This document shows, piece by piece, positions 11,293 through 53,125 of a DNA stretch of 64,000 bases (positions are counted from its first letter, which is position 1; each line of letters opens with the position of its first letter). The stretch is from an uncultured Leifsonia sp. Lineage in GTDB: Bacteria > Actinomycetota > Actinomycetes > Actinomycetales > Microbacteriaceae. Under the pieces are notes generated by a model. That model worked only from the letters and a program-made list of their open reading frames with translations, ran no database searches and had not been told where the DNA came from. Both the position numbers and the translations under genes were made by a program. Location of the stretch: assembly GCF_945957465.1 (NCBI RefSeq), contig NZ_CAMFLC010000021.1, forward strand, positions 1 through 64,000. The letters are read 5' to 3'.

Positions 11293-11901
11293 GTGAGCGG
11301 TGAGGGAGGCGCCTGGGAGCGGAACAGGGTCCTGCTCTCGGACGTCTCCTTCTCCGTGGGCTCGGTCTGCTTCGCGGTCGCGGCGCTGCCGTCGGCCGCC
11401 GCCGCCCTCGGGGCGATCGCCACCAGCGCGGTGTTCGTGATCGGGTCGGTCTTCTTCACGGCCGGTGCCGGTCTGGCTCTCGGCCTCCCGAACCGCAGCT
11501 CGTCGGTGATCCAGTTCGTCGGCACGCTGTTCTTCAACGTGAGTACGTCGCTGGCGCTCGCCGCGGCGGTGCCGGCCGGGGCGGCGGGAGGGACGGGCTG
11601 GCGTCCGGACGTCTACGGCTCGATCTGCTTCCTGCTCTCGAGCGTGCTCGCCGTGGTCGCACTCTCCCGCCGGCGCGCCGATACCAGGGACAGTGCGGGA
11701 GGCTGGCTCAACCTGGCCGGGTCAGTGCTGTTCGGGTTCGCGGCGGTCGGCGCGTTCGAGCCGCCGGGTACGAACGCCCTGCTGAGCCCGTTCTGGACCG
11801 GGGTCGGCACGGTCGGCGGCGCGCTGTGCTTCCTCGCCGCCGCCGTGCTCGGCCTGCTGCCGGCGCCGCGCGCTCAGCGCGCGGGGACGGCCTCGAAGTA
11901 G
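11293..11901 (+). CDS. Multi-pass membrane protein, YrhK-like
   Basis: A 202-residue integral membrane protein with about six hydrophobic segments, e.g. residues 12-45, 58-80, 92-112 and 165-190. The pattern of paired helices with W/G-rich turns suggests the YrhK family, but the match is by feel only. GTG 11293 starts 13 bp after gadB on the same strand; ATG alternatives are absent. It converges on the next gene, overlapping its 3' end by 28 bp. Function unknown; a link with GABA or acid stress would be guesswork. Confidence 0.6.
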   Translation: MSGEGGAWERNRVLLSDVSFSVGSVCFAVAALPSAAAALGAIATSAVFVIGSVFFTAGAGLALGLPNRSSSVIQFVGTLFFNVSTSLALAAAVPAGAAGGTGWRPDVYGSICFLLSSVLAVVALSRRRADTRDSAGGWLNLAGSVLFGFAAVGAFEPPGTNALLSPFWTGVGTVGGALCFLAAAVLGLLPAPRAQRAGTASK

Positions 11902-48141: not shown

Positions 48142-48534
48142 ATGCTGGACCTGAGGATCGAAGTCGTCGCCCGCAACGAACTGGGCGCCATCGTCGCGCT
48201 CGTCACTCCGCACGGCGTCGTCGACGCGCAGCACGCCTCGTCGCAGATCGCGCGCGGCGAGGCGACGTACGTGACCGGCCCCGACTCGTACTCGCGCGTT
48301 CCCGTCCGCGCGATCTCCACCCTCGGGGGCGCCTACCTGTACGCGAACTGGGACGGCACGCAGCGCAACAACCTCCACGACCTGGCCGCCGTGCGCGTGC
48401 GGACACCCCCGGCGGACGCGGTCGGCGACGCGCTCGCGACCGTCTGGTCGACGCGCCGCGGGCAGGTCGCCGCGCTCTGGGGGCGTCTCTTCCCGGCCTC
48501 GACACGACCACGCCAGGGCGCACGCAGCGCATAA
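48142..48534 (+). CDS. DUF3892-like small protein
   Basis: A 130-residue protein. The block GGAYLYANWDGTQRNNLHDLA (about 65-85) has the DGT-x-x-N-N-L signature of DUF3892. The N-terminus (MLDLRIEVVARNELGAIVAL) and the charged tail show no other domain. ATG 48142 has GAGGAAC just upstream. It stands 95 bp before the first ECF41-type promoter and is not obviously part of that regulon. Function unknown. Confidence 0.6.
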   Translation: MLDLRIEVVARNELGAIVALVTPHGVVDAQHASSQIARGEATYVTGPDSYSRVPVRAISTLGGAYLYANWDGTQRNNLHDLAAVRVRTPPADAVGDALATVWSTRRGQVAALWGRLFPASTRPRQGARSA

Positions 48535-48628: not shown

Positions 48629-48655
48629 TGTCACAAATCCTCCTGCCGATCGGTC
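48629..48655 (+). promoter_or_regulatory. ECF41-type promoter P1
   Basis: TGTCACA (48629-48635), exactly 15 bp, CGGTC (48651-48655). It is 53 bp before the 48709 start codon. The -35 heptamer is that reported for ECF41 sigma factors; the same pattern occurs twice more nearby. Confidence 0.75.
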
Positions 48656-48708
48656 TCAGTCGGTGACGGTGACCGAGGACACCACCTCGGCCGGACGGAG
48701 GCAATCGG

Positions 48709-49164
48709 ATGACCGCGATCGCACACGGCACGAGAAGGCGGACCCTCGGCCCGGCCCTCCGGCGGGGCGGCTGGGCCGCATGGGAATGGCTTGCGCGGCC
48801 CGTCCACTATCGCTCGGTGCACCGGCTGCAGACCGCAGCGGAGGCCGGCGACACGGAGCGGTTGCGCTCCCTGCTCGCGCCGACGGTCGCGGTCGTGGTC
48901 GACTCGGGCAGCGGTGACCCGTCGGGACTGCGGGTGATCCAGGGCGTCGCGAACGCGGCGGTGGTGCTCGAACACGGCTTCGCGCGCGTCGACGGCGTGT
49001 TGGTCGATGCACGGTCGGTCAACAGCCAGGCCGGCCTCATCATCAGCCGCGCCGGCACCCCGATCGCCTCCGTCGCCGTCGACTTCACCGGCCGCCTCGT
49101 CTCGATGGTCTGGGTGCGCCTGAACCCGGTGGAACGCCGGCACTGGAACAGCGTCTACGCCTGA
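48709..49164 (+). CDS. Stand-alone ECF41-C-terminal-like (SnoaL/NTF2) protein, 1
   Basis: A 151-residue protein without a signal peptide. From about residue 36 it follows the order of the ECF41 C-terminal domain: helix HRLQTAAEAGDTERLRSLLA, VVVDSGSG (DGGG position), SVNSQAGLIISRAGTPIASV (104-121) and WVRLNPVERRHW (NPDKL position, degraded). Similarity is low but colinear. It lies behind ECF41-type promoter P1; start ATG 48709 has GGAGG 8 nt upstream. The role could be to sense the same cue as the sigma factor or compete with its regulatory domain; this is inference. Confidence 0.7.
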   Translation: MTAIAHGTRRRTLGPALRRGGWAAWEWLARPVHYRSVHRLQTAAEAGDTERLRSLLAPTVAVVVDSGSGDPSGLRVIQGVANAAVVLEHGFARVDGVLVDARSVNSQAGLIISRAGTPIASVAVDFTGRLVSMVWVRLNPVERRHWNSVYA

Positions 49165-49349
49165 GCGGACCCGCAGATGCTCAGCTCGACGCATCCGGCG
49201 GTGGGTGGGACCAGCCGTGGTCTGCTTGGCGCTACCCGGGGAGGGGCCGCCTGAAACCCTGTGCTCCCGCGCTTACCTCGCGGCTCGGCCGGACGCGTCG
49301 ACAGCTCGGACAGTCGACATGGTAGAGCTGTAACGCCCTGTGCGGAACC

Positions 49350-49376
49350 TGTCACATCCGGGAGGTCTGCTCGGTC
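49350..49376 (+). promoter_or_regulatory. ECF41-type promoter P2 (epimerase-sigma operon)
   Basis: TGTCACA (49350-49356), 15 bp, CGGTC (49372-49376), 46 bp before the start codon at 49423. It would make the sigma factor autoregulated. Confidence 0.78.
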
Positions 49377-49422
49377 AGAGCAGGTGACGGCGCGACCGCG
49401 CCGCCGCAACGAAGGGATGAAC

Positions 49423-50178
49423 ATGAAGATCGTCGTCATCGGCGGAACCGGCCTCATCGGCCGCCCGCTCGTCGAGCAGCTCCGCCAGGCCGGGCACGAG
49501 GTCGTCCCGGCCTCCCCGTCGACCGGCGTCGACACGGTGACCGGTGCGGGCGTGGACGCGGCGCTCGCCGGCGCCGCCGTGGTCGTCGACGTGGCCAACT
49601 CGCCGTCGTTCGACGACGGCCCCGTGCTGGAGTTCTTCGAGCGCAGCACCGGCACGCTCGTCGAAGCGGAGAAGAGGTCGGGCGTCGGCCACCACGTCGT
49701 ACTGTCGATCGTCGGCGCCGACCGGATGCCCGACATCGGCTACATGAGGGCCAAGGTGCGGCAGGAGGAGATCGTCCGGGGCAGCGGGGTGCCGTTCACG
49801 ATCGTGCGGGCCACGCAGTTCTTCGAGTTCCTCTCCGCGCTCGCCGAGGGCGGAGCGGCCGGCGACACCATCACCCTGTCTCCGGTGCTCATGCAGCCGA
49901 TCGCCGCGGCCGACGTGTCGCAGGCGCTCGCCGCCGTCGCGCTCGCCGAGCCGGCGAACGCCCTCGTCGAGCTCGCCGGCCCGGAACCACTGCGCCTCGC
50001 CGACGCTGCAAGGGCGGTACTCGGCAGTCGCGGTGACACCCGCGAGATCATCGCCGACGACTCCGCCGGCTACTTCGGCGGAACCGTGACCGACGAGTCG
50101 CTCGTTCCCGGTCACGACCCGAAGGCGGTCGCGCAGCTGCGCGGCGCGACCTCCCTCGCGGAGTGGATGCGCCGCTAG
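49423..50178 (+). CDS. NAD(P)-binding epimerase/reductase of the ECF41 locus
   Basis: A 251-residue atypical SDR. Nucleotide site KIVVIGGTGLIGRPLVEQL; VVDVANSPSFDDG; then HHVVLSIVGADRMPDIGYMRAK and VRATQFFEFL, as in NmrA/SDR_a5-type proteins. ECF41 sigma genes are usually found with an oxidoreductase, epimerase or carboxymuconolactone-decarboxylase-like gene (the COE group), and this fits. ATG 49423 is preferred to 49417 because GAAGGG is 6 nt upstream. The sigma gene starts 10 bp after its stop. Confidence 0.9.
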   Translation: MKIVVIGGTGLIGRPLVEQLRQAGHEVVPASPSTGVDTVTGAGVDAALAGAAVVVDVANSPSFDDGPVLEFFERSTGTLVEAEKRSGVGHHVVLSIVGADRMPDIGYMRAKVRQEEIVRGSGVPFTIVRATQFFEFLSALAEGGAAGDTITLSPVLMQPIAAADVSQALAAVALAEPANALVELAGPEPLRLADAARAVLGSRGDTREIIADDSAGYFGGTVTDESLVPGHDPKAVAQLRGATSLAEWMRR

Positions 50179-50188
50179 CATCGAACCC

Positions 50189-51097
50189 ATGTCCCGACCC
50201 GATGCGACCGCGGACGAGCGCAGCGGCGACGACCTCGCGTCCGCCGTCGCGACCTTCGCGGAGGTCCGTCCGCGGCTGTTCGGCATCGCCTACCGGATGC
50301 TCGGCACCGTCGCGGACGCCGAGGACATCGTGCAGGACACCTGGCTGCGCTGGCAGGCCTACGATCGCTCCACCGTGCGCGAACCCGCCGCATTCCTGGC
50401 CACCATCGCGACGCGCCTCGCGATCACCGCGGCGACCTCCGCGCGCGCACAGCGCGAGACGTACATCGGGCCGTGGCTCCCGGAGCCTGTCGATACCTCT
50501 CAGGACCCGACCCTGGGCGCTGAGCGCGGCGAAGCCCTGAGCGTCGCCGTGCTCGTGCTGCTTGAGAAGCTGTCACCCGCCGAGCGCGCGGCGTACGTGC
50601 TGCGTGAGGCGTTCGACTACCCGTACGCGGACATCGCGGGGGTCATCGAGACCAGCGAGCAGGCCGCCCGGCAGCTGGTCAGCAGGGCGCGCAAGCACCT
50701 CGCGGCCGAACGGAAGTCGCGCGCCGTCGGAGACGACGAGCGCATGCGCCTCCTCACCGCGTTCATGGCGGCGGCCGTGGAGGGCGACATGGGCGCCCTC
50801 GAGAAGCTGTTCGCCGACGACGTCGTCTCGCTCTCCGACGGCGGCGGTGTCGTGCGGGCGACGCGCATCCCCGTCGTCGGCGCCGTCACCGTGGCAAAGT
50901 ACATCCACGCGTTCGCCTCGCGGTTCTGGGCGGGATCGGCCCTCCACCTGGTCGAGCTCAACGGCGGTCCGGCGTTCGTGGCCACCCGTGATGGCGAAGT
51001 CTTCGCCTCCGTCACGGCCGATCTCGACGGCGCCGGCATCCACGGCCTCTTCTGGGTCCTCAATCCGGACAAGCTGGGGCACGTCACCGCCGCCTGA
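50189..51097 (+). CDS. sigJ: ECF41-family sigma factor (SigJ-like)
   Basis: A 302-residue extracytoplasmic-function sigma factor that directs RNA polymerase to its own promoters. Sigma-2 (about 25-90: RPRLFGIAYRMLGTVADAED, DTWLRW), linker WLPEP (96-100), sigma-4 (115-172: LSPAERAAYVLREAFDYPYA, VSRARKHL), then a fused SnoaL-like domain (185-302) holding the ECF41 hallmark DGGG (217-220) and NPDKL (292-296). No anti-sigma gene is present; in this family the C-terminal domain regulates the sigma factor. Expected promoter TGTCACA at -35; three matching sites surround the gene. Confidence 0.95.
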   Translation: MSRPDATADERSGDDLASAVATFAEVRPRLFGIAYRMLGTVADAEDIVQDTWLRWQAYDRSTVREPAAFLATIATRLAITAATSARAQRETYIGPWLPEPVDTSQDPTLGAERGEALSVAVLVLLEKLSPAERAAYVLREAFDYPYADIAGVIETSEQAARQLVSRARKHLAAERKSRAVGDDERMRLLTAFMAAAVEGDMGALEKLFADDVVSLSDGGGVVRATRIPVVGAVTVAKYIHAFASRFWAGSALHLVELNGGPAFVATRDGEVFASVTADLDGAGIHGLFWVLNPDKLGHVTAA

Positions 51098-51113
51098 CGG
51101 CCCGCCGGGGCGA

Positions 51114-51140
51114 TGTCACAGAACGGTCCCCTGTCCGGTC
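51114..51140 (+). promoter_or_regulatory. ECF41-type promoter P3 (cytochrome b-like operon)
   Basis: TGTCACA (51114-51120), 15 bp, CGGTC (51136-51140), 28 bp before the start codon at 51169 and 16 bp after the sigma gene stop. Confidence 0.78.
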
Positions 51141-51168: not shown

Positions 51169-52764
51169 ATGAGGCAGGCACTGACGGAGAGGGACTCGCG
51201 AGCGGCGGAGCGGACCGCGGCCGGGCGACGGATAGCCGCGGCCCGTGCCGAACTCGGGGGTCGCCGCGTCTCGCTGCACTGGTCGAACCTGTTCGGCGTG
51301 GTCGCCCTCGCGTGCGTCGTCGTGCTCTTCGTCACCGGCCTCCTGCTGCTGTTCTGGTACGCGCCGTCGGGCCGGGGCGTGACCTACGAGGGCTCGTACG
51401 GCCCGCTCGCCGGGCAGGAGGCTTCCGCCGCGTACGTGTCGATCCTGCGCACCTCGTTCGACATCCCCGGCGGCCTCCTCGTGCGGCAGGCCCATCACTG
51501 GGCCGCGCTGCTGCTGCCCGCCGCGATCATGATGCAGCTCGCCGTCGCGTTCTTCACCGGAGCGTTCCGGCGCCGGCGCGGCTCGTGGCTGGTGCTGTTC
51601 GGGCTGCTGGTCGTCGCGCTCGCGGGAGGCCGGAGCGGCTACGCCCTCCCCGACGACATGCTCTCCGGCACAGGCCTGCGGATCTTCCAGGGCATCCTCC
51701 TCGGCATCCCGGTCGTCGGCACCTGGCTGTCGTGGCTGGTCTTCGGAGGTGGGTTCCCGGGATGCATCATCGAGAACCTCTACCCCGTGCACATCGCCGT
51801 GGTTCCCCTCCTCCTGGTCGTGCTGCTCTGGCTGCGCGCGCGGCTCGCGTCCCGCCAGGAGCCGAGACGGTACCCGGGAGAGATCGGCGTGGCGGTGTTC
51901 CCGGACGCGGCGGTGCGCGCCGGAGGGCTCTTCGCGATCGTGACCGGTCTCCTCGTGCTGATGGCCGCGACCGTGACGGTCGCACCGGTCTGGCTGTTCG
52001 GGCCGTCGTCACCGGGTGACGCGTCGGCCGGAAGCCAGCCCGACTGGTACACCGGGTTCCTCGACGGCGCGCTGCGACTGGTACCGCCCGGGTGGGAGGT
52101 CGTGTGGCTGGGTCGCACCTGGACGCTCGCGATCCTCGTACCGTTGGCGGTCGTCGGCGCGTTCCTGCTCGCCGTCGCGGTCTACCCGTTCTTCGAGCAG
52201 TGGGTCCGTGGCCCCGGCGAAGACGATGCGTTGCTCGACCGCCCCCGCAACGAGCCGACCCGCACGGCGCTCGGCGTGGCCGGCATCGTCTTCTATGGGG
52301 CGCTCTGGGGAGCGGGCAGCGCCGACCTCCTCGCGACGCATTTCAGCATCGGGCTGGAGGCGGTGGTGCACGGGTTCCAGGCGCTCGTGGTGCTCGGACC
52401 GGTCGCAGCGTTCCTCCTCACGCGGAGGGTGTGCCTCGCTCTGCAGAAGAAGGACAGGGGACTGCTCCTGCACGGCTACGAGACCGGTCGCATCGTCCGG
52501 CTGCCCGGCGGGCGGTACGTGGAGGTGCACGCGCCCGTTCCGGAGGCGGAGCGCGTACAGCTCGGCGGCCCGCGGGCCGTGGCCGCCGCCGTCGTCCGTC
52601 CCGATGAGTCCGGGAGGATACGCATCGGGAAACTCATCCGGGCGCGCCTTGCGCGTGCGTATCTCGAGGACCGGCTCGAACCGGCGCCGCTCGCGCGGAT
52701 CGAGGCGGCCGCGGAAAGGGACCGGGTGGATGAGGCGACCGCTGGCCGGGCCGGAGCGGCCTGA
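51169..52764 (+). CDS. QcrB-type cytochrome b paralogue without heme bH ligands
   Basis: A 531-residue membrane protein aligned end to end with actinobacterial QcrB: SLHWSNLFGVVALACVVVLF, GSYGPLAGQEASAAYVSILR, RQAHHWAALLL, SGYALPDDMLSGTGLRI, quinol-site PDWY (291-294) and C-terminal LLLHGYETGRIVRLPGG. Heme bL ligands are kept (H109 in helix B, H208 in helix D). Both bH ligands are replaced: Q123 (14 after H109) and R223 (15 after H208). No QcrA or QcrC lies beside it. Start ATG 51169 has GGGAGG upstream; it is behind ECF41-type promoter P3. It may take electrons from quinol in an incomplete chain, or sense the quinone pool. The ligand losses were read by eye against remembered QcrB sequence. 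Confidence 0.88.
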   Translation: MRQALTERDSRAAERTAAGRRIAAARAELGGRRVSLHWSNLFGVVALACVVVLFVTGLLLLFWYAPSGRGVTYEGSYGPLAGQEASAAYVSILRTSFDIPGGLLVRQAHHWAALLLPAAIMMQLAVAFFTGAFRRRRGSWLVLFGLLVVALAGGRSGYALPDDMLSGTGLRIFQGILLGIPVVGTWLSWLVFGGGFPGCIIENLYPVHIAVVPLLLVVLLWLRARLASRQEPRRYPGEIGVAVFPDAAVRAGGLFAIVTGLLVLMAATVTVAPVWLFGPSSPGDASAGSQPDWYTGFLDGALRLVPPGWEVVWLGRTWTLAILVPLAVVGAFLLAVAVYPFFEQWVRGPGEDDALLDRPRNEPTRTALGVAGIVFYGALWGAGSADLLATHFSIGLEAVVHGFQALVVLGPVAAFLLTRRVCLALQKKDRGLLLHGYETGRIVRLPGGRYVEVHAPVPEAERVQLGGPRAVAAAVVRPDESGRIRIGKLIRARLARAYLEDRLEPAPLARIEAAAERDRVDEATAGRAGAA

Positions 52765-53125
52765 GCCCGACCGTCGTCTCGCGCTCGAGGTGCTGCGCGC
52801 CCTCCGGGCCGGCGATGTCGAGCAGCTGCTGCGCGTCATCGGGCCGCATCCACGCGTCGTCGTCGACGGCTGCGGCCACGGCGACGAGTTGCGGCTGCAG
52901 TGTGCGATGCTCGACTGCCCGGTGAGTCGTGTGGTGGCGGCCGCGTTGCGCTGGGAGCTGCGTTCGGTGAACGGCGGACCGGGATTGGTCGGCAGCCGTT
53001 CGGGGCGGGTGGTCGTCGTCGCGGTGCTCGTCGGGGCCGTCGGCGACGCGACGGAGCTCTGGGTCGTCGCGAACCCCGACAAGCTCCGGAGCTGGAGCTC
53101 GGGATCCGCGACCGAGCGGCTCTAG
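52730..53125 (+). CDS. Stand-alone ECF41-C-terminal-like (SnoaL/NTF2) protein, 2
   Basis: A 131-residue protein that keeps ECF41 C-terminal hallmarks without sigma domains: helix RRLALEVLRALRAGDVEQLL, VVVDGCGHGDEL (DGCG 46-49 for DGGG), SVNGGPGLVGSRSGRVVVVA (NGGPG 81-85; sigma has NGGPA) and ANPDKLRSW (115-119). It overlaps the cytochrome b-like gene by 35 bp, with GGAAAGGG before its ATG, so it belongs to the P3 operon. Likely senses or titrates the same signal as the sigma factor. Its end overlaps the convergent DUF2207 gene by 4 bp. Confidence 0.82.
   Translation: MRRPLAGPERPEPDRRLALEVLRALRAGDVEQLLRVIGPHPRVVVDGCGHGDELRLQCAMLDCPVSRVVAAALRWELRSVNGGPGLVGSRSGRVVVVAVLVGAVGDATELWVVANPDKLRSWSSGSATERL

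Follow-up and report, generated by a model that had tools for sequence, protein, structure and literature searches.

Does a sigma factor of the ECF41 group serve a single target operon, or can it command a wider set of neighbouring genes? The question is raised by a stretch of DNA of 64,000 nucleotides from an uncultured Leifsonia sp. (contig NZ_CAMFLC010000021.1, positions 1 to 64,000; here referred to as the window), in which the gene of an ECF41 sigma factor is accompanied by three copies of one promoter-like motif. In the portion of Wecke et al. 2012 considered here, the consensus of ECF41 promoters is given as TGTCACA-n16-CGTC with a single target operon, and no conserved regulon members are named beyond the COE and ECF41 genes (PMC3426412). 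One target is likewise given for Sinorhizobium RpoE9 in the portion used of PMC6180224. For the window we propose a local ECF41 regulon with three matched promoters. From one of them the sigma factor would transcribe its own operon, in which a short-chain dehydrogenase/reductase (SDR) gene precedes the sigma gene, and from the others two additional units. We put the probability of this reading at about 0.82. Transcription by the local sigma factor and its autoregulation are what we infer from the anatomy of the locus, its conservation and the co-occurrence of its genes.

Promoter motif and ECF41 operon of the window

The motif TGTCACA-N15-CGGTC was found in three exact copies on the forward strand, always with a spacer of 15 nucleotides (nt), as a first-pass annotation of this DNA had reported. 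ECF41-type promoter 1 (48629..48655; -35 element 48629-48635, -10 element 48651-48655) lies 53 nt before ATG 48709 of a gene here named CTE1. Promoter 2 (49350..49376; 49350-49356 and 49372-49376, respectively) precedes the SDR-sigma operon, with 46 nt to ATG 49423 and 40 nt to an in-frame ATG at 49417. Promoter 3 (51114..51140; 51114-51120 and 51136-51140) lies 28 nt before ATG 51169 of the cytochrome operon. These distances are in agreement with the 28-53 bp that had been annotated.

The likeness to the published ECF41 pattern held for the -35 element, which reads TGTCACA in all three copies, but not for the -10 element. The published spacing is 16 +/- 1 nt with CGTC at the -10 element. All three sites carry GGTC after 16 nt (equivalent to CGGTC after 15), so that the total length equals that of the consensus while GGTC replaces CGTC.

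The exact motif is rare. In the own genome (4,055,485 bases, 112 contigs) it occurred four times, and not once in a reversed control; three of the four copies stand within 2.5 kb, each before a gene of the window. A relaxed search (N16-[CG]GTC with one mismatch) yielded 39 sites compared to 56 in the reversed control and thus no enrichment. Allowing two mismatches within the window, five sites were observed where 8.37 were expected, which is not above chance. Since the relaxed sites were fewer than in the control, only the exact sites carry signal, and no claim is made for additional loosely matching sites of the genome.

The sigma factor (50189..51097, forward strand) could be assigned to ECF41 as annotated. 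Residues 22-299 matched NCBIfam TIGR02957 with 339.9 bits (cut-off 323.25), and the Pfam regions Sigma70_r2 and r4_2 were recognised. The open reading frame (ORF) contains GPWLPEP and hence the WLPEP linker, as well as DGGG and NPDKL, both aligned with relatives. That the latter two are ECF41 hallmarks was taken over from the annotation; they were not found as text in Wecke et al. 2012. The SDR gene (49423..50178, forward strand) is located 10 bp upstream of the sigma gene, and both stand behind promoter 2, which bears out the annotated epimerase-sigma operon. Its product is an NAD(P)H-binding SDR or NmrA-like epimerase (Pfam NAD_binding_10, E 3e-11), and as a member of the NAD_binding_10/NmrA group it agrees by sequence with the COE genes described beside other ECF41 factors.

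In total, three ECF41-like sigma factors were found in the own genome. At the second ECF41 locus (C13:18406 and C13:19368) the published -10 element CGTC was present before an SDR-like gene; the site at C13:18406 belongs to this second locus. With the pattern applied, none was found at the sigma locus on C2 (L005).

Promoter conservation in related loci

The footprint of promoter 1 was present in five of five aligned loci as [TGA]GTCACA plus GGTC, with the initial T only in the window and the most changed -10 element in L039. Promoter 2 was conserved in five of five aligned loci (L036 reads GGTCACA) and promoter 3 in three of three. The latter also matched an extended family motif, TGTCACA-N10-CTGTCCGGTC. 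With one mismatch allowed, 21 of the 398 family genomes together held 26 sites of the extended motif, compared to four sites in the reversed control. Of 21 extended sites within fetched loci, 17 were located directly before an SDR, sigma, NDH-2, cytochrome or CTE1 gene and one before a longer operon containing module genes.

The cytochrome behind promoter 3 belongs to a class of 55 de-duplicated sequences, which is described below. An exact operon-leading ECF41-type promoter was found in 29 of these 55 loci (dinucleotide-shuffle mean 0.06, maximum 1), and in 38 if one mismatch was allowed (shuffle mean 1.07, maximum 3). In both counts none of 58 loci of QcrB with four ligand histidines (HHHH) carried such a promoter, and the 44 HHHH loci from named genomes were free of sites even within 2,600 bp. 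The counts cover about 250 bp from the first gene of the operon, shorter upstream stretches being available on some contigs, and comprise the -35 heptamer, N15-17 and [CGT]GTC. A stricter search range retained 28 of the 55 loci, and the reversed pattern was found in one of the 55. Outside the 55, locus L146 carried a one-mismatch site 67 bp ahead of the matched start. The -10 element was variable, with GCGTC or GTGTC in place of CGGTC at the end of many cytochrome promoters of Agromyces.

With promoters in 29 to 38 of 55 cytochrome loci, the putative regulon is not limited to the COE and sigma genes. Both the conservation of the three promoters and their frequency in the cytochrome class, which is far above chance, support the local, self-controlled regulon that the first-pass annotation had suggested.

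A cytochrome b without heme bH ligands

The cytochrome gene (51169..52764, forward strand) encodes a QcrB-like cytochrome b of 531 amino acids (aa), for which one heme is predicted. The protein matched Cytochrom_B_N_2 and reached 486.2 bits with NF050120, below the curated cut-off of 500; its identity to the housekeeping QcrB of the own genome is about 50%. His109 (codon CAT, 51493..51495) and His208 (CAC, 51790..51792) are retained. The ligands of helix B and helix D are replaced by Gln123 (CAG, 51535..51537) and Arg223 (CGC, 51835..51837), respectively. By the standard ligand order of cytochrome b, the two histidines still present are those for heme bL, next to the Qo site, and the two replaced ones served heme bH. 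The alignment thus reads H-Q-H-R where 14 of 14 housekeeping copies read H-H-H-H, a pattern from which the one-heme state is predicted. The Qo-site motif PDWY is kept. The annotation had recognised a cytochrome b-like operon behind the third motif copy, and this part stands; the loss of the bH ligands and the gene CTE2 had been overlooked.

In the family, 26 copies share the window type; 24 of them were HQHR, one HHHY and one HQHL, and all 26 kept PDWY. A scan of named genomes added 80 loci, 36 of the window class and 44 HHHH; they had been fetched with the peptides AGSQPDWY and GFLDGALRL, so that PDWY is present there by selection. The class is found in Leifsonia, Agromyces, Microbacterium, Okibacterium, Humibacter, Promicromonospora, Isoptericola, Microlunatus, Nocardioides and others. 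From the 62 sequences without four histidines (26 from family loci, 36 from named ones), seven named duplicates were removed, which left 55; L146 was dropped without a counterpart among the 55, as the partial L052 was left out. The ligands were HQHR in 51, HHHY in two, HQHW in one and HQHL in one sequence. Both heme bH ligands were lost in 53 of 55 and both heme bL ligands kept in 55 of 55, where the loss of at least one ligand follows by construction from the definition of the class as not HHHH, but the double loss and the retention of the bL pair do not. Mean column identity among 22 class sequences was 66%. The copy of L054 is frameshifted.

Extra QcrB copies of other families, present in eight genomes (L228-L234, L237), keep the helix B histidine. 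Such paralogues were rejected as members of the class, given that 12 of 13 among the matches listed keep this histidine; the lone exception, L235, is a member of the window class. No Rieske or cytochrome c family was found among the recurrent neighbour clusters listed for the cytochrome loci. An alpha/beta hydrolase was present in nine of the 55 neighbourhoods (L042:11446-12183 and relatives).

Free relatives of the ECF41 control domain

Two small genes of the window are not accounted for by the published ECF41 plan. CTE1 (48709..49164, forward strand, 151 aa) stands behind promoter 1, and CTE2 (52730..53125, forward strand, 131 aa) shares its first 35 bp with the 3' end of the cytochrome gene. 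CTE1 matched positions 166-274 of TIGR02957 (E 5e-11) with a score far below the whole-protein cut-off, as is expected for only one domain. A profile of 20 CTE1 proteins found SigJ (5xe7, residues 174-231, E 2e-5). CTE2 matched PRK09636 (E 1e-6) and TIGR02957 (E 6e-6), both at C-terminal model positions. In the alignment CTE2 retains VNGGPG and NPDKL, and CTE1 retains VN-QAGL with NPDKL replaced by a conserved RHWN-V end. By sequence comparison, both are free-standing relatives of the control domain that ECF41 factors carry at their C-terminus.

The predicted folds are NTF2/SnoaL-like, with a mean predicted local distance difference test score (pLDDT) of 80 for CTE1 and 77 for CTE2. In a Foldseek search with the CTE1 model, SigJ ranked 6-7 among many NTF2-fold proteins including ketosteroid isomerases, and in a structure search with the CTE2 model SigG1 ranked second in a list which also holds isomerases and cyclases. 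Pfam SnoaL models matched neither protein; CTE1 had no Pfam family and CTE2 only a weak unrelated one. The annotated "free SnoaL-like gene" behind the first motif copy can be kept for its position and its predicted fold, but that its product is a relative of the ECF41 control domain had been missed.

Many CTE1 proteins start with WEWLARP, which is faintly reminiscent of the WLPEP linker. Near the cytochrome, three loci, among them L119 (-2756 from the cytochrome match), encode another group of control-domain-like proteins that stand free (cluster 11). In L040 (9645-10253) and L042 (9277-10110) a 200-aa, apparently membrane protein precedes CTE1 in a long operon; the L040 copy had no Pfam match.

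Operon forms and co-occurrence

In the relatives, the gene before the cytochrome is frequently a type 2 NADH dehydrogenase (NDH-2). It was present in at least 21 of the 55 class loci (23 by gene clustering), and its nearest solved relatives are NDH-2 enzymes (e.g. PDB 9mqy, 5na1). The window locus carries no NDH-2 gene, and a single copy turned up in the own genome, a 65% relative truncated where its contig ends. In the close relative L036 the segment between promoter and cytochrome (11407-11515) contains, in our reading of the alignment, the first NDH-2 codons followed by a stop. From this remnant, the window arrangement looks like a reduced operon. L235 stems from a different taxonomic order. 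There, promoter, NDH-2, cytochrome and ECF41 sigma gene stand in a row on one strand and an SDR gene has a second promoter, with CGGTC at the end of both promoters.

CTE1 orthologues (E below 1e-20) were present in 20 of the 398 family genomes and the sigma subgroup (E up to 1e-70) in 49. The cytochrome was found in 27 genomes among the matches listed, with the best three candidates per genome scored. Sixteen of the 20 CTE1 genomes belonged to these 27 (P 4e-18), and 20 of the 27 carried the sigma subgroup (P 6e-15). Two of the cytochrome genomes (G269, G386) owed their recognition to CTE1 loci; when they were left out, the overlaps were 14 of 20 for CTE1, now against 25 cytochrome genomes (P 6e-15), and 18 of 25 for the sigma subgroup (P 5e-13). 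Excluding the own genus, they were 9 of 13 for CTE1 (P 2e-10) and 14 of 20 for the sigma subgroup (P 1e-10). At the level of genera, 7 of 10 CTE1 genera compared to 15 of 85 gave P 1e-4.

Besides the genes discussed so far, the window contains a 130-aa ORF (48142-48534) that had no family matches and is 85-87% conserved in two Leifsonia relatives.

Weighing the readings

Several observations weigh against the local regulon. The fourth exact copy of the motif in the own genome (C1:114834) is located inside a trehalose-synthase-like ORF. Three of the extended sites stand elsewhere than before module genes, two of them (L054, L052) not on the strand of the cytochrome operon and one without a module gene. 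By the first-gene rule 17 of the 55 class loci had no site; in two of these an exact site leads an operon of CTE1 and cytochrome, and one has a one-mismatch site missed by the rule, which leaves 14, mostly from Promicromonospora and its kin. Seven of the 27 cytochrome genomes among the matches listed lack a sigma factor of the subgroup. One of them is the close relative G360, in whose locus L037 (9656-9835) the SDR gene is gone and the sigma gene is down to its last approximately 27 codons, while promoter 3 and the cytochrome are kept; as the genome has no sigma factor of this subgroup at all, it speaks against strict dependence. In addition, the P values of co-occurrence overstate the association since related genomes are not independent.

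How far do these points favour another explanation? That the three copies are a chance event or a dispersed repeat devoid of promoter function, as the intragenic copy and the unenriched one-mismatch sites could suggest, appears extremely improbable in view of four exact sites against none in the control, three of them within 2.5 kb before genes, the footprints and the locus statistics. Other ECF41 factors may read the cytochrome promoters in the seven genomes without the subgroup sigma. A reading by other paralogues or a mixture, with the local sigma factor mainly serving its own operon, would be consistent with three such factors in the own genome, the retained site of L037 and the deviating Agromyces promoters; yet we consider it unlikely for the window. 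The second ECF41 locus has its own CGTC site before the SDR-like gene and the three window sites are all CGGTC, which suggests separate -10 preferences. The local regulon thus remains the preferred reading.

Given this regulon, the roles of its outputs are considerably less certain. CTE1 and CTE2 might be ordinary SnoaL/NTF2-like enzymes or small-molecule binders, sharing ancestry with the control domain and no regulatory role. The CTE1 model is near to ketosteroid isomerases about as well as to SigJ, CTE1 has exchanged NPDKL for its own conserved end, and isomerases and cyclases are among the structural matches of CTE2. Against this, sequence models pick the ECF41 C-terminal region for both proteins and SigJ for the CTE1 family, CTE2 retains VNG-PG and NPDKL, and the SnoaL models of Pfam match neither. 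We regard this explanation as a serious competitor at somewhat below even odds, and the same holds for regulation in trans by the free domains, as far as the sequences suggest it. For the cytochrome, a decaying or non-catalytic QcrB copy, e.g. a decoy for quinol or an inhibitor, would be consistent with the absence of both heme bH ligands, with the lack of a Rieske or cytochrome c family among the recurrent neighbour clusters listed, and with the frameshift in L054. We consider it rather doubtful, because the replacement is non-random (H-Q-H-R in 51 of 55), the heme bL ligands persist in all 55 sequences and PDWY in all family loci, and the mean column identity over 22 sequences is 66%. A role as decoy or sensor may still apply.

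Proposed mechanism

In two other species, the sigma factor was active after truncation of the C-terminal extension and inactive after its full removal, according to the portion of PMC3426412 considered here. The most likely working of the locus would start with a ligand or redox signal that relieves the fused control domain of the sigma factor, which could then amplify itself from the SDR-sigma promoter. CTE1 and CTE2 may tune the response by binding either this signal or the sigma factor. If made from the sigma factor's own promoters, the free domains could give a feedback, either as competitors for the linker or through a shared ligand. The output would combine the NAD(P)H-linked SDR, in many relatives NDH-2, and a Qo-side cytochrome, and the membrane part of it may change the disposal of NADH and menaquinol electrons.

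Heme bH is described in the literature as the usual route of the second quinol electron. With heme bH absent this route would be gone, and the boldest reading in line with this is an outlet that is non-bifurcating and does not conserve energy. From the sequences we hold a non-bifurcating respiratory role of the cytochrome branch for possible but rather doubtful. Slightly less likely still is the complete scheme, in which the subgroup ECF41 would command an uncoupled NADH/menaquinol outlet, made of a cytochrome b with heme bL and the quinol-oxidising Qo side, which could not run a Q cycle, and, in many genomes, the non-pumping NDH-2. CTE1 and CTE2, as free copies of the sigma factor's control domain, would act in trans as feedback regulators or shared ligand sensors.

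For the widespread ECF41 group, a respiratory target that is conserved, together with control-domain relatives that occur free, would provide concrete handles on signal and purpose. A cytochrome b class in which Gln and Arg regularly take the place of the heme bH ligands would moreover be a natural test of the capabilities of half a bc-type cytochrome b.

Comparison with known systems

A literature search that covered few subscription papers found no description of an ECF41-controlled cytochrome b, of such a ligand pattern or of a free ECF41 control domain. The NDH-2 enzymes of known structure (PDB 9mqy, 5na1) are of the same type as the gene before the cytochrome in relatives, a gene not found at the window locus. 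The window cytochrome shares the heme bL ligands and PDWY with QcrB of the actinobacterial bcc complex (NF050120), and about half of its residues with the own housekeeping copy. It differs in the replacement of both heme bH ligands, in its position as a single gene outside the qcr operon and in its ECF41-type promoter. QcrB2 and QcrB3 of Streptomyces coelicolor are likewise QcrB paralogues encoded apart from the qcr-cta genes and thus comparable in gene position (PMC7931247).

Fused SnoaL_2 domains are known from SigJ of Mycobacterium tuberculosis (PDB 5xe7), which CTE1 resembles by sequence and fold, and from SigG1 of Streptomyces tsukubaensis (PDB 7qh5), which CTE2 resembles by fold. In contrast to both, the control domain of the window also occurs free, without sigma regions.

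The sigma factor itself is built like Ecf41Bli, Ecf41Rsp and RpoE9, as described in the portions used of PMC3426412 and PMC6180224, with sigma2 and sigma4 regions, a WLPEP linker and a fused C-terminal control domain. As in the published loci considered, an SDR or epimerase gene stands upstream behind a TGTCACA promoter, and no anti-sigma gene was seen. Different from the published ECF41 loci, where the COE gene forms the single target operon as far as these sources go, the window has two further promoter-bearing units, the -10 element GGTC and two free relatives of the control domain. With units beyond the COE targets, the locus would thus extend the known ECF41 plan.

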